Shown: piece after piece, positions 1-11,843 of the stretch
How the letters are laid out: each line of letters starts with the position of its first letter
How positions within the stretch are numbered: the stretch's first letter is position 1
Assembly (NCBI GenBank): GCA_029251785.1
Contig: JAQXCQ010000095.1
Span: 1 to 64,000 of the forward strand
Reading direction: 5' to 3'
Length of the DNA: 64,000 bases
Origin: Maricaulis sp.
GTDB lineage: Bacteria; Pseudomonadota; Alphaproteobacteria; Caulobacterales; Maricaulaceae
The notes under the pieces: model-generated
Seen by the model: the letters and a program-made list of their open reading frames with translations, nothing else
What the model was told of the DNA's origin: nothing
Database searches by the model: none
Translations under genes and position numbers: made by a program

Positions 1-729
1 TTTGAGGATCTGGCGCCGATGATCGCCGCGCTGGGGCGGCGGGTGATCGTCGTGTCGATGCGGGGGCGGGGCCGGTCTGACTACGATCCGCAGCCGGAAC
101 GCTATCAGCCGCTGACCTATGCCATCGATTTGACCGGCATGCTCGACGCGCTGGCACTGGAGAAAGTCGTGTTCATCGGCACCTCGATGGGCGGACTGAT
201 CACCATGATCCTCGCCTCCACCATGCCTGAACGCTTCGCCGCAGCCGTGATCAATGATATCGGCCCGGAAATCAGCCAGGCCGGGATCGATCGGATCATG
301 TCCAATGTCTCAAGCCGTGATCCGGTCGCCAGCTGGGCCGAGGCCGCCCAGCGCACCAAGGACGCCAATCTGGAAACCTTCCCGACCCGCACGGACGACG
401 CCTATTGGGATAATTTTGCGCGCAAGACCTGGATAGAGATGGACGATGGCCGCCTGCGCCTCGACTATGACGGTGCCATCATCGACCAGATGGGTGGCAA
501 TGAGCCGCTCCCGGACCTCTGGCCCTTCTTCAACGCTCTGAAAGACATCCCGACACTCAGCGTCCGCGGCGGCATCACCGACCTACTGACAACCGAGACA
601 ATCGCAAAAATGCGTGCGGCAAAGCCGGATTTGCTGACGGTCAATGTGCCGGATGTCGGCCACGCCCCGTTCCTGACAGAACCGGAAGCGTGGGCGGAGA
701 TTGAAGCATTGCTGGGCCGGGTGGCTTAG
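1..729 (+). CDS. alpha/beta hydrolase fold protein (5' end outside the window)
   Basis: Frame is open from the window edge; GTSMGG nucleophile elbow, RGRGRSDYD motif, C-terminal GHAPFLTEPEAW. Confidence 0.85.
   Translation, partial: FEDLAPMIAALGRRVIVVSMRGRGRSDYDPQPERYQPLTYAIDLTGMLDALALEKVVFIGTSMGGLITMILASTMPERFAAAVINDIGPEISQAGIDRIMSNVSSRDPVASWAEAAQRTKDANLETFPTRTDDAYWDNFARKTWIEMDDGRLRLDYDGAIIDQMGGNEPLPDLWPFFNALKDIPTLSVRGGITDLLTTETIAKMRAAKPDLLTVNVPDVGHAPFLTEPEAWAEIEALLGRVA
700..729 (+). repeat. Copy 1 of a ~31-nt imperfect direct repeat (3' end of the hydrolase gene); copy 2 at 1178-1208
   Basis: gattgaagcattgctgggccgggtggcttag versus gatagaggcgttgctggcccgggtggcttag, about 27/31 identical. 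Confidence 0.7.
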
Positions 730-1235: not shown

Positions 1236-1362
1236 CGTCATTCTGACGAAGGTCAGGACCCAGTTCATAAAGCGATTGCGTGGATAGGTGGCGGACCGTC
1301 AGCGCATCAATCGCCAAGGCACCGCTATACAAACTGGGTACTGACCTTCGTCAGCATGACGG
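1236..1362. repeat. Inverted pair of ~35-nt palindromic repeats (REPIN-like element 1)
   Basis: cgtcattctgacgaaggtcaggacccagttcata (1236-1269) and inverted tatacaaactgggtactgaccttcgtcagcatgacgg (1326-1362). Confidence 0.85.
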
Positions 1363-1390
1363 CATGTGGGGGCGAGTTTTGTGGTGTCGG

Positions 1391-1726
1391 CTAATCAATA
1401 AAGTTCCAGTCCTGGATCGTGTCAAACCAATCCTTCCAGTCCAAATTATTCTCTTCAATCAGATTAATCTTCCACGCCCGATGCCAGTTCTTCAGACGCT
1501 TTTCGCGCGCAATCGCCGTATCGAACGTCTCGTGGAATTCATACCAGACGAGCCTGTGTACGTTGTATTTGCGGGCGAACGCTGAACCCTTGCCTTCTCG
1601 GTGCGCGATCATCCGGCTGGCGATATCACCCGTCACGCCGATATAGAGCGTTCCGTTTCGTCTGCTGGCCAGAATGTAGACGCACGGGTGCTTCGCCAAA
1701 TTATATTCCGCCAATAAAACCGTCAT
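1391..1726 (-). CDS. GIY-YIG nuclease superfamily protein
   Basis: N-terminal CVYILASRRNGTLYIGVT (GIY-YIG-type motif), REKRLKNWHRAWKINLIEENN. Confidence 0.9.
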   Translation of the reverse strand: MTVLLAEYNLAKHPCVYILASRRNGTLYIGVTGDIASRMIAHREGKGSAFARKYNVHRLVWYEFHETFDTAIAREKRLKNWHRAWKINLIEENNLDWKDWFDTIQDWNFID

Positions 1727-1849
1727 GCTGACGAAGATCGGTACCCAGTTTGTAAGGCCCGGCGGATGTTAGTTCGCGCCGTGTTTGACGCTCCACTTCA
1801 ATTGGTCCCCGCCATATAAACTGGGTCCTGATCTTCATCAGGATGACGG
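1720..1849. repeat. Inverted pair of ~35-nt palindromic repeats (REPIN-like element 2)
   Basis: ccgtcatgctgacgaagatcggtacccagtttgta (1720-1754) and inverted catataaactgggtcctgatcttcatcaggatgacgg (about 1813-1849); same consensus as element 1. Confidence 0.85.
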
Positions 1850-2520: not shown

Positions 2521-3299
2521 GCGACCAGCTCCCCCTCTTTTTCGATAATGCTTTCCACCACCGGCACATCATCTGGTGCGTCCACAGACCAGGCCGAGCG
2601 ACCGCGATAATCGGTCAGCACGATCCGGATTGGGATGGCGTTTTCCAGAGCTCGCAATTGTTCCAGCGACTCGGCGCGTTCCAGCGGCGAGGGATCAAGC
2701 GCAACAATCTCCTCCAGCGTGTCCCGGCGATATCCGTACAGGCCGATATGCTGATAAGTCGGCGTGCCGGCCTCGGGATGGCGATGGAAGGGGATCATGC
2801 CCTTGGAAAAATACATCGCATCCATGTGTTTGTTGAATACGACCGTGGTGCCGCCGACGATGCCGCGTGATTTCATCTCACGCATACGGTCGGCCGTCTC
2901 AACGGGCATTTTCACGGCTGGTGTTGCCATTTGAAGCGTCGCGTCCTTGCTCATGGCGGTGGCGATATCGCCAATCACCCAGGGCGGGATCAGCGGCGCG
3001 TCGCCCTGGACATTGACCACCACATCCGCATCCGCCTTCAGCTCACGCACGGCGGCCAGAGCGCGTTCCGTGCCATTGCGACAGGCCGGATCCGTCATCA
3101 CAGCTTCGCCGCCAAAGCCGCGCACCGCGTCGATGATGCGCTCATCATCGGTCGCCACCACAACCCGGTCGACACCAGGTGCCGCCCCGGCACAGCGCCA
3201 GACGCGCTCCACCATGTAGCGGCCGGCAATCCTGGTCAGCGGCTTGCCGGGCAGGCGGGTGGATCCATAGCGGGACGGGATGACAGCGATCACAGACAT
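2517..3299 (-). CDS. kdsB: 3-deoxy-manno-octulosonate cytidylyltransferase
   Basis: MSVIAVIPSRYGSTRLPGKPLTRIAGRYMVERVW...VVVATDDERI...NVQGDAPLI...QHIGLYGYRRDTLEEI. Confidence 0.95.
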   Translation of the reverse strand: MSVIAVIPSRYGSTRLPGKPLTRIAGRYMVERVWRCAGAAPGVDRVVVATDDERIIDAVRGFGGEAVMTDPACRNGTERALAAVRELKADADVVVNVQGDAPLIPPWVIGDIATAMSKDATLQMATPAVKMPVETADRMREMKSRGIVGGTTVVFNKHMDAMYFSKGMIPFHRHPEAGTPTYQHIGLYGYRRDTLEEIVALDPSPLERAESLEQLRALENAIPIRIVLTDYRGRSAWSVDAPDDVPVVESIIEKEGELVA

Positions 3300-3491
3300 G
3301 GTTGTTTTTCCTTGCTTTGCGTCCGCTTTTTCCACATTCGTGCGCCCGTGGGAAGCGCTTCGGGACCGTGCGCGGCGCCCAGCCCTGCAAAATTGCGATG
3401 CCACTTTGATGTCCAGGCGCGTGCGGCAAAGCGTGGCGGATGTTATGGGCCCTGCTAAGAAGATGCATCGAATCAAAGAAGTGACACTGTA

Positions 3492-8639: not shown

Positions 8640-11600
8640 ATGTCTTTGATGAAAAAACTTGCTATGGGCACAGCGACTGCTGCGCTTCTGGCCGCAGCTC
8701 CAGCAGCTGTTTACGCACAGGAAACAACGTCCGACGTTCGCGGCGTCGTCACTTCTGGCGGAGCACCTGTTAACGGTGCCACAGTCACTATCGTTCACAC
8801 ACCGTCCGGTTCGACTTCGGTCGCAACATCCGGCGCAAACGGTGCATTCAACGGTCGCGGCCTGCGCGTTGGTGGTCCTTACACCATCACGGTCAGCGCT
8901 GCGGGTTACGCGTCTCAGCAGATTGAGGGCCTTCAGCTCTCCCTGGGCGCGCCGCTCAACCTGCCTGTCTCACTTGAGCGCGGTAATGTTGATCAGATCG
9001 TTGTTACAGCCTCCGCCATGTCCTTTGGCGATCTGTCCACCGGTCCTGCCGCCCGCTTCACATCGGACGACATCAATGGTTTGCCATCGATCTCCCGCGA
9101 CCCACGCGACATTGCGCGCCTGAGCCCGTTTGCAAATCTCGACTCGGAAAACTCCGACGCGATTTCACTGGCCGGTGCCAATAACCGCTTCAACTCTTTC
9201 ACCGTTGACGGTGTGGCCCAGAACGACATGTTCGGCCTCAACGCTTCTGGTTTCCCGTCCGAGAACCGCGGCCCGGTGTCAATCGACGCACTGGCAGCGA
9301 TCTCCGTCGAGGTGGCTCCGTTTGACGTTCAGTATAACGGCTTCGGCGGTGGTACAATCAACGCCGTGACCCGTTCCGGTGACAATGATTTCCACGGTTC
9401 ACTGTACTTCTTCTCCACTGACGAAAGTCTCGTTGGCGACACGACTGAAGATGTCACACTGGGCACATCACCTTTCTCCGAGGAAACACTCGGCGGCTGG
9501 ATTTCTGGCCCGATCATCGAAGACAAGCTGTTCTTCTTTGCTTCCTACGAAGAGTTCTCACGCGTTAACCCGCTGAACCGCGCACCACTCGGTGGCCCGG
9601 CTTCCCTGAACGTTGAAAACGACGTTACCCAGGCTGAAGTCGATCAGATCCTTTCCATCATGCAGTCTGTTTACGGTCTTGACCTGACAAACTTTGATGA
9701 AGCGGATCTGGGCTCAACAGACGAAAAAATCCTCGTTTCTGTTGACTGGAACATCAACAATGATCACCGCGCGAAGCTGACCTATAACAGCTCCGAAGGT
9801 GGATCGGTTCAGGAACGTTCTGACCGTGCCGACATTGGTACGCCGTCAACCTGGTACAATCGTTCCGAGACTGTTGATAATCTGTCCCTTCAGCTCTTCT
9901 CTGATTGGTCAGACAATTTCTCAACCGAGCTGAAGATCACACAGTCATCCCAGGAAACCGGTCAGGATTCCCTTGACGGCGCCGATTTCGCCCAGTTCGA
10001 TATCGATACGCCAACCGGTGGTACGGTGTCTGTTGGACCGGATTATTTCCGTCACGCCAACGCACTGTCCAACGATCTCTTCCAGGTGAAGTTGCGCGGT
10101 GAGTACATCTCCGGCAACCACATCTTCTCGTTTGGTTATGAGCACTCCAGCCAGGACGTCTTCAATCTCTTCGTCCCAGGTTCCGAAGGTTCTTACGACT
10201 TCGATTCAATCGTTGATCTACAAAACCAGAACGCAGCAAGCCTGTTCTACAACAATGCTGTGACAAACGACGAGAATGACGCGGCGGCTGAATTCGGCGT
10301 TTCCGTTGATTCACTCTACGCTCAGGACGAGCTGATGGTGAGCGATCAGCTGACCATGATCTTTGGTCTGCGCTATGATCGTTATTCTTCTGACGATGCA
10401 CCGACATTCAACCCGAACTTCATGGCGCGTTACGGCTATGCCAACAACACGACCATCGATGGGCTCGACATCATCATGCCGCGGATCGCGTTCAATTACG
10501 CTTCCGACGCCCAGTTCGAAATCCCGTTTGCTGATCTGTCCGTCAACGACATCGGCTTCCGCGGCGGCTTCGGCCGTTTCTCGGGTGGTAACCCGCTCGT
10601 TTGGATTTCCAACAGCTTCTCCAATGACGGTGTCAACACAGACTCCATCTTCATCGGTGGCGGCCTGGCAGGCGTAGACGCATTCAACCTTCCAGTTGCT
10701 GCGACCACAGGTCTGGTTGCTGGTGATGGTTCCGTTGCGGCCCTGGCTCCAGACTTTGAAATCCCAAGCGTCTGGCGTGCGTCCTTCGGTGCGGATGTCC
10801 AGTTCGACATGTTTGGTTCCGAAGACTGGCAGTTCACCTTCGACATTCTGTACGATACGCAGGATGCCGCGACATTCTTCTCCGATGCCAATTGCCCACT
10901 TCTGGGTGCGTCGGCTGTAGACGGTCGTCCGATTTACGATTGTGAAACCGCCCGTCAGGACATTGTGATGAGCAATGTGGATGAAGGTAATGCCATCATC
11001 ACCACATTCCAGCTGTCCAAGGATTGGGACAACGGCTTCTCGCTCTGGATGGCCTATGCCAACCAGGACGTAACCGACGCCCATTCCGGCACATCATCGA
11101 CGCAGACTTCCAACTATTCGGATTATGCGACCTTTGATCGTCAGAACCCGAACAATGCGACCTCCAACTACGAAATCGAGCATGACTGGAAACTTCGCGC
11201 TTCCTGGCGTCACGCTTTCTTCGAAGATTATGAGACCCGCGTTGAGTTGTTCATGAACAGCCGTTCTGGCCGTCACTTCTCATACACTTATGGCTACTCA
11301 AACGGACTGGGCAACCAGTACCGCAACCAGTCAGCCTTCGGTATTCATGAGAGTGCTGCCGATGATGAAGGCACACTGTTCTACGTCCCAGAAACAGATG
11401 CGAGCGGCAATGTGACGCTCACATCCGATCCAAACGTGACGTACACAGCTGGCTTCGACATTGCAGGTCTGAACAGCTACCTGCACTCAACAGGTCTGAT
11501 CGGTTATGCCGGTGAGATCGCGCCACGTAACGAGTTCGATAGCCCATGGTCGACACAGTTCGATCTGCGCTTCCAGCAGGAATTCCCAGCCTTCTTCCCG

Positions 11601-11843
11601 AATGGCGCACGCGGAATCTTCTACATGGACATCGAAAACCTCGGTAACCTCCTCAATAGTGACTGGGGTCGTTCTGAAGGTATTCGTTACGAATACTTCC
11701 AGCCTGTCGTAGAGCTCTATGACATCAATGGTGCTGGTCAGTATGTCTATGACGACGCACGTGGCGTTCCACACTCTAATGAGAACTCGATCCACCGCTC
11801 TTCACTGTGGCAGATCCAGTTCGGCGTCCGTTACGAATTCTAA
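8640..11843 (+). CDS. Oar-like TonB-dependent receptor with N-terminal carboxypeptidase-regulatory-like domain
   Basis: Signal peptide, DVRGVVTSGGAPVNGATVTI domain, plug (SISRDPRDIARLSPF...FTVDGVAQND), C-terminal IQFGVRYEF. Confidence 0.93.
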   Translation: MSLMKKLAMGTATAALLAAAPAAVYAQETTSDVRGVVTSGGAPVNGATVTIVHTPSGSTSVATSGANGAFNGRGLRVGGPYTITVSAAGYASQQIEGLQLSLGAPLNLPVSLERGNVDQIVVTASAMSFGDLSTGPAARFTSDDINGLPSISRDPRDIARLSPFANLDSENSDAISLAGANNRFNSFTVDGVAQNDMFGLNASGFPSENRGPVSIDALAAISVEVAPFDVQYNGFGGGTINAVTRSGDNDFHGSLYFFSTDESLVGDTTEDVTLGTSPFSEETLGGWISGPIIEDKLFFFASYEEFSRVNPLNRAPLGGPASLNVENDVTQAEVDQILSIMQSVYGLDLTNFDEADLGSTDEKILVSVDWNINNDHRAKLTYNSSEGGSVQERSDRADIGTPSTWYNRSETVDNLSLQLFSDWSDNFSTELKITQSSQETGQDSLDGADFAQFDIDTPTGGTVSVGPDYFRHANALSNDLFQVKLRGEYISGNHIFSFGYEHSSQDVFNLFVPGSEGSYDFDSIVDLQNQNAASLFYNNAVTNDENDAAAEFGVSVDSLYAQDELMVSDQLTMIFGLRYDRYSSDDAPTFNPNFMARYGYANNTTIDGLDIIMPRIAFNYASDAQFEIPFADLSVNDIGFRGGFGRFSGGNPLVWISNSFSNDGVNTDSIFIGGGLAGVDAFNLPVAATTGLVAGDGSVAALAPDFEIPSVWRASFGADVQFDMFGSEDWQFTFDILYDTQDAATFFSDANCPLLGASAVDGRPIYDCETARQDIVMSNVDEGNAIITTFQLSKDWDNGFSLWMAYANQDVTDAHSGTSSTQTSNYSDYATFDRQNPNNATSNYEIEHDWKLRASWRHAFFEDYETRVELFMNSRSGRHFSYTYGYSNGLGNQYRNQSAFGIHESAADDEGTLFYVPETDASGNVTLTSDPNVTYTAGFDIAGLNSYLHSTGLIGYAGEIAPRNEFDSPWSTQFDLRFQQEFPAFFPNGARGIFYMDIENLGNLLNSDWGRSEGIRYEYFQPVVELYDINGAGQYVYDDARGVPHSNENSIHRSSLWQIQFGVRYEF

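Follow-up and report, generated by a model that had tools for sequence, protein, structure and literature searches.

A small GIY-YIG nuclease gene in Maricaulis lies between two inverted pairs of a repeated hairpin, an arrangement that raises the question of how gene and hairpin belong together. The window, the whole 64,000-nt stretch analysed, comes from a genome that we call G000. An earlier note on this DNA had proposed that the nuclease may recognise, propagate or domesticate the palindromes. We read the locus, with a probability of about 0.72, as the gene of an Ssn-type GIY-YIG endonuclease accompanied by the enzyme's cognate family of CGTC-tagged hairpins in inverted pairs (REPIN-like head-to-head, or HH, dimers), the repeat-bounded gene being a mobile unit.

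A GIY-YIG gene between two inverted repeat pairs

The features of the locus, in window coordinates, are these.

1236-1265, plus strand: CGTC-REP unit 1, outer arm of pair 1 (tag CGTCA, hairpin TTCTGAC-GAAG-GTCAGGA, tail CCCAG)
1332-1361, minus strand: CGTC-REP unit 2, inner arm of pair 1
1721-1750, plus strand: CGTC-REP unit 3, inner arm of pair 2, overlapping the ATG of the nuclease ORF
1819-1848, minus strand: CGTC-REP unit 4, outer arm of pair 2
1236-1361: REPIN-like HH dimer 1, 126 nt
1721-1848: REPIN-like HH dimer 2, 128 nt
1391-1726, minus strand: GIY-YIG (Ssn-like) nuclease gene, 111 codons from the repeat-borne ATG (PF01541, E = 3.5e-18)
1209-1887: stretch with the REP-dimer/nuclease/REP-dimer block, which 14 Maricaulis genomes lack where their orthologous hydrolase and PGM genes meet

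The 30-nt unit CGTCATnCTGAcGAAGrTCrGnACCCAGTT has four copies and no further matches in the 64 kb, where none is expected by chance (0 of 100 shuffles). This search confirms the four copies, the two inverted pairs and their position around the gene as the earlier note had described them; its arm spacing of 56-60 nt came from longer arms, and with 30-nt arms the two convergent pairs have spacings of 66-69 nt. All four units start with CGTC and have a 4-nt loop (GAAG) and a 7-bp stem in which the first A stands opposite a C. Hairpin pairing reaches 98% among 32 distinct units, which were gathered with a mild stem filter that inflates pairing, and double-changed cells number 44 versus 11 in shuffled units. 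The outermost T-A/C-G pair, which lies outside that filter, covaries too (28 UA, 4 CG, 0 unpaired).

The only clear gene between the two pairs is the nuclease gene, whose identity as GIY-YIG was borne out by the Pfam match. It retains the catalytic Y17, Y28, R38, H42 and E75, which are conserved across phyla, and its predicted fold, fixed by the Pfam match and these residues, is GIY-YIG. The UPF0213 proteins (PDB 1zg2, 1ywl) match it by sequence (E = 9e-4) and have the GIY-YIG domain in common with it, a distant likeness; we know of no repeat association for them. The suggestion that the repeat supplies the start codon holds weakly: the ATG at 1726-1724 does belong to the inner repeat (...GTCAGC/ATGACGG), and one relative (G092, C4), the only other case, also has a repeat-borne ATG, but the conserved start in relatives is the downstream M-A-(K/R)-H-P-C, whose equivalent in the window is a TTG at 1699-1697, codon 10. 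A repeat-derived start is therefore possible but optional.

Individual nuclease copies elsewhere in the genus decay. One, adjoining an intact REPIN, has its catalytic Glu changed to Lys (E75K; G076 C3, L124:3030-3326), and its orthologue in G084 (L126) is frameshifted; both are probably dead. Together with copies found on one side only at one orthologous site, this indicates that retention of the nuclease gene is not strong. A second nuclease clade has, immediately before its start codon, a conserved dyad close to GCAATTTATAATTGC (L111, L112, L115, L116, L117, L122, L129, L130, L173, L174), perhaps a promoter with an autoregulatory site.

Relation to known repeats and nucleases

The earlier note had called the system a candidate for an undescribed one, which comparison with the literature does not support: the repeats belong to the superfamily of CGTC-tagged REPs, family CGTC-1, which includes the Neisseria dRS3 repeat and occurs in several bacterial phyla (Di Nocera et al. 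2013, PMC3733652). CGTC-1 repeats have an unpaired CGTC tag at one end, a 4-nt loop, a CCA tail, an 8-bp stem with complementary AT in the first two positions "almost invariably", and head-to-head dimers (PMC3733652). The window repeats share the tag, the loop, the CCA tail (as CCCAG), the head-to-head dimers (as convergent pairs), variable stems and a mostly alphaproteobacterial distribution; they differ in a stem of 7 rather than 8 bp and in a first pair A-C instead of A-T. They also bracket a GIY-YIG gene, whereas CGTC REPs were reported to have no dedicated transposase and not to flank any transposase gene (PMC3733652).

Two other arrangements are comparable. The GTAG REPs moved by RAYTs also form inverted pairs of fixed length, with a gene between its own REPs and repeat-specific paralogues; here the enzyme is GIY-YIG rather than Y1 HUH, the tag CGTC rather than GTAG, and the genome has no RAYT. 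The neisserial intergenic mosaic elements (dRS3 + RS, PMC3898611) likewise place CGTC-1 repeats around a short spacer in intergenic DNA. Their RS spacers are sequence families, whereas the spacers here are alike in length more than in sequence.

On the enzyme side the nearest known parallel is Ssn (site-specific single-strand nuclease), a Neisseria GIY-YIG nuclease reportedly described by Chenal et al. in Nat Commun in 2025. It is said to cut a repeated sequence in single-stranded DNA, its homologues having matching sequences, and its target in Neisseria is reportedly the NTS/dRS3 repeat, a member of the CGTC-REP superfamily. The window nuclease resembles Ssn, as reported, in being a small stand-alone GIY-YIG protein with catalytic Y, Y, R, H and E and with a cognate repeated hairpin in the same genome, the presumed target sequence being repeated both genome-wide and beside the gene. 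It differs in its paired putative target, in the bracketing of the gene and in having several paralogue-specific systems per genome. The two halves, CGTC REPs and Ssn nucleases, are known separately, and we assign the locus to Ssn-like nucleases with putative CGTC-REP targets, as a variant distinguished by its paired, paralogue-specific and gene-bracketing arrangement.

Most nuclease genes are flanked by repeats of their own

Repeats common to both flanks are present at 50 of 65 homologue loci from several phyla, compared with 15 of 392 control intervals (4%) drawn from the same loci; about 23% of the homologues have no shared flanking repeat. For 30 Maricaulis nuclease genes, the upstream flank scores a median of 37 against the gene's own downstream flank versus 11.5 against those of paralogues in the same genome (p = 1e-4). 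Paralogues within one genome have different repeats, each matching its own other flank.

The flank of a nuclease gene also predicts what is repeated elsewhere in its genome. The palindrome CTGAACTTGTTTCAG has 10-111 copies in 9/9 genomes predicted to be rich in it from a CTGAACTTGTTTCAG-flanked nuclease (Sphingomonadales, Bacteroidota, Gastranaerophilales and CPR); five genomes whose nucleases have other flanks have 0, 0, 0, 0 and 11 copies, and a reversed-pattern control gives 0. Similarly, repeats of the dRS3 pattern ATTCCC(N8)GGGAAT (taken from PMC3898611) flank the nuclease in two bacteria of the window's taxonomic family (L050, L053), a further likeness to Ssn, and have 17 and 6 copies in those two genomes and none in six others.

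The link between nuclease and repeat is more than chance. REPs are indeed abundant and intergenic in Alphaproteobacteria (PMC3733652), so small genes in repeat-rich intergenic regions could come to lie beside them, but the control intervals of the same loci, the paralogue-specific matching and the correct genome-wide predictions leave this explanation with hardly any weight.

Repeats and paralogues across the source genome

In G000 we find three clear homologues of the nuclease (window, C143, C52) and one weak match. Pairs of the window repeat recur at 124-126 nt on contigs C17, C117, C134 and C209. Their spacers are of near-equal length and mostly unlike in sequence; the exception is the C117 dimer, whose spacer matches that of dimer 1, inverted, at 93% over 43 nt. 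A related repeat directly brackets the second nuclease (C143, 56% identical) in two inverted copies, and two pairs of another palindrome, CCCCGGACTTGTTCCGGGG, enclose the third (C52, 48%). The gene itself can fill the spacer of a REP pair, as on C143 and in G056, and single REPs bracket it in L121 and L035.

Across Maricaulis clade A, pair lengths fall into discrete classes of about 81, 102, 113, 125 and 146 nt (for example the REPIN pairs of L136-L155) and are alike upstream and downstream of many genes. Helical phasing of these lengths was considered and dropped, since by eye 67, 68, 83, 99, 107, 116, 119, 130, 149, 165 and 197 misfit. We also looked for remnants of nuclease genes in REPIN spacers and found no similarity except in G111. 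A further dispersed element of ~70 nt, with tens of copies in G076, G026 and G084 (e.g. G076:C1:362378-362516), appeared as extra matches of a flank query.

Repeat load follows the nuclease in Maricaulis

Counted with a covariance model of the hairpin, copies have a median of 26.5 in ten Maricaulis genomes with the window's nuclease clade versus 3 in nine genomes without it (one-sided p = 0.008, kinship ignored), so that copy number goes with the clade, in line with the earlier note's interpretation. RAYTs are established as the enzymes that move GTAG REPs (PMC3733652), and the architecture here fits REPINs, which makes it natural to ask whether a RAYT or other HUH transposase moves these repeats, with the GIY-YIG gene a passenger or an insertion into a REP cluster. 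Y1_Tnp genes (PF01797) do occur in G009, G046, G099, G111 and G116, and two of these genomes, G046 and G111, hold many repeats without an intact nuclease. Yet G000 has no Y1_Tnp gene, nor do nine of the ten genomes that carry the window's clade, which upholds the earlier contention that the repeat's companion is a GIY-YIG nuclease and not a RAYT. For G000 we reject the RAYT as mover. The reported lack of transposase genes beside CGTC REPs also speaks against it, and a passenger gene would leave the linkage in many phyla unexplained; we regard this account as very improbable in general and largely refuted for G000.

G111 is an apparent exception that can be accounted for, because a gene-deleted version sits there between two intact REPs: the nuclease has an internal deletion, with flanks about 94% identical to G056. 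G046 carries 36 CGTC-REP copies, more divergent, along with two Y1_Tnp genes and no intact close nuclease, so repeats can persist without the nuclease. G066 has 8 copies and no nuclease homologue.

Empty sites and possible mobility

If the block is mobile, orthologous sites should differ in its presence, and empty sites, which the earlier note had asked for, do exist. In 14 Maricaulis genomes the hydrolase and phosphoglycerate mutase (PGM) genes that flank the block are adjacent and convergent, with no nuclease or REP between them; in 12 of these 14 the two stop codons lie about 5-32 nt apart, against 1158 nt in the window. Two REPINs are polymorphic as well, one of G092 being missing in G123, G084 and G076, and one of G076 in G084 and G026. 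The edges at these two REPIN sites are inexact, in that 20-40 nt past the repeat differ too, and we see no target duplication there, the edges being blurred by divergence. Exact insertion boundaries at older empty sites were given up, the intergenic divergence being too high. In G009, the similarity between two paralogous gene-plus-dimer units runs as far as the outer edge of the downstream dimer and stops there abruptly.

The site itself has a further history. The hydrolase gene's 3' end is present as a degraded direct duplicate of 57 nt (about 75%) at window positions 673-729 and 1152-1208, and the 422-nt segment between the duplicates holds two short ORFs with no Pfam match. The relatives lack this segment too, so two insertions may have hit one site. 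Elsewhere in the genus, homologous nuclease units stand on opposite sides of the same neighbour genes in different genomes (L113 around 11473-11772 versus L130 around 3025-3309; L035 versus L121), as if by local re-insertion.

Gene-bearing elements share their ends with non-autonomous copies, as the gene between single REPs in L121 and L035 and the gene-deleted version in G111 show. Together with the findings above, this suggests that REP-gene-REP units and gene-free dimers are related as transposon and MITE. Most likely, the nuclease would recognise the single-stranded hairpin together with its CGTCA tag and cut beside it when the DNA is single-stranded, as in replication or natural transformation. 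Each paralogue would be confined to a stem sequence of its own, the gene with its bounding repeats would behave as a mobile unit, and the gene-free pairs may be non-autonomous copies of that unit, the counterparts of MITEs.

A competing account keeps the nuclease and its target and dispenses with mobility. The enzyme would serve the host by cutting single-stranded DNA at REPs, whether incoming or replicating, for instance to tune transformation. Gene conversion, recombination or other enzymes would then spread the repeats, and the gene would simply stay close to its targets. We give this account substantial weight, a little short of even odds. The work on Ssn in Neisseria reportedly found modulation of transformation and did not report transposition, and the imprecise REPIN edges and the repeats that outlive the nuclease in G046 and G111 fit it as well. 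A host factor with a shared target, however, explains poorly why the repeat on both flanks differs from one paralogue to the next, and dimers bound the paralogous copies while the gene block is absent from most relatives. Against our preferred reading, a mobile repeat-bounded gene with its cognate hairpin, speak the repeats of G046 and G066, the inexact REPIN edges, the homologues that lack a shared flanking repeat and the weak retention of the gene. What the earlier note had proposed is partly supported. Binding and cleavage of the hairpin, a preference for single strands, and a spread driven by the nuclease rather than by general recombination are things we infer, the last of them plausible but unproven. 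The most specific version, in which CGTC REPs are the ends of GIY-YIG-driven mobile elements, with autonomous REP-nuclease-REP units, dimers as deletion derivatives and each paralogue propagating its own hairpin family, we put forward tentatively, as somewhat more doubtful than probable.

Implications

The evidence points to a partner for the CGTC REPs, which the 2013 survey concluded apparently lack a dedicated transposase (PMC3733652), and the GIY-YIG nucleases are the best candidate for that enzyme. One Maricaulis genome (G000, G026 or G092) carries several nuclease/hairpin pairs, which makes swap tests of their specificity feasible. If the nuclease does drive the spread of its hairpins, unrelated nucleases would have given rise to REP-type replicators on separate occasions, and the system here would be a counterpart of REP/RAYT that evolved on its own from another nuclease fold.
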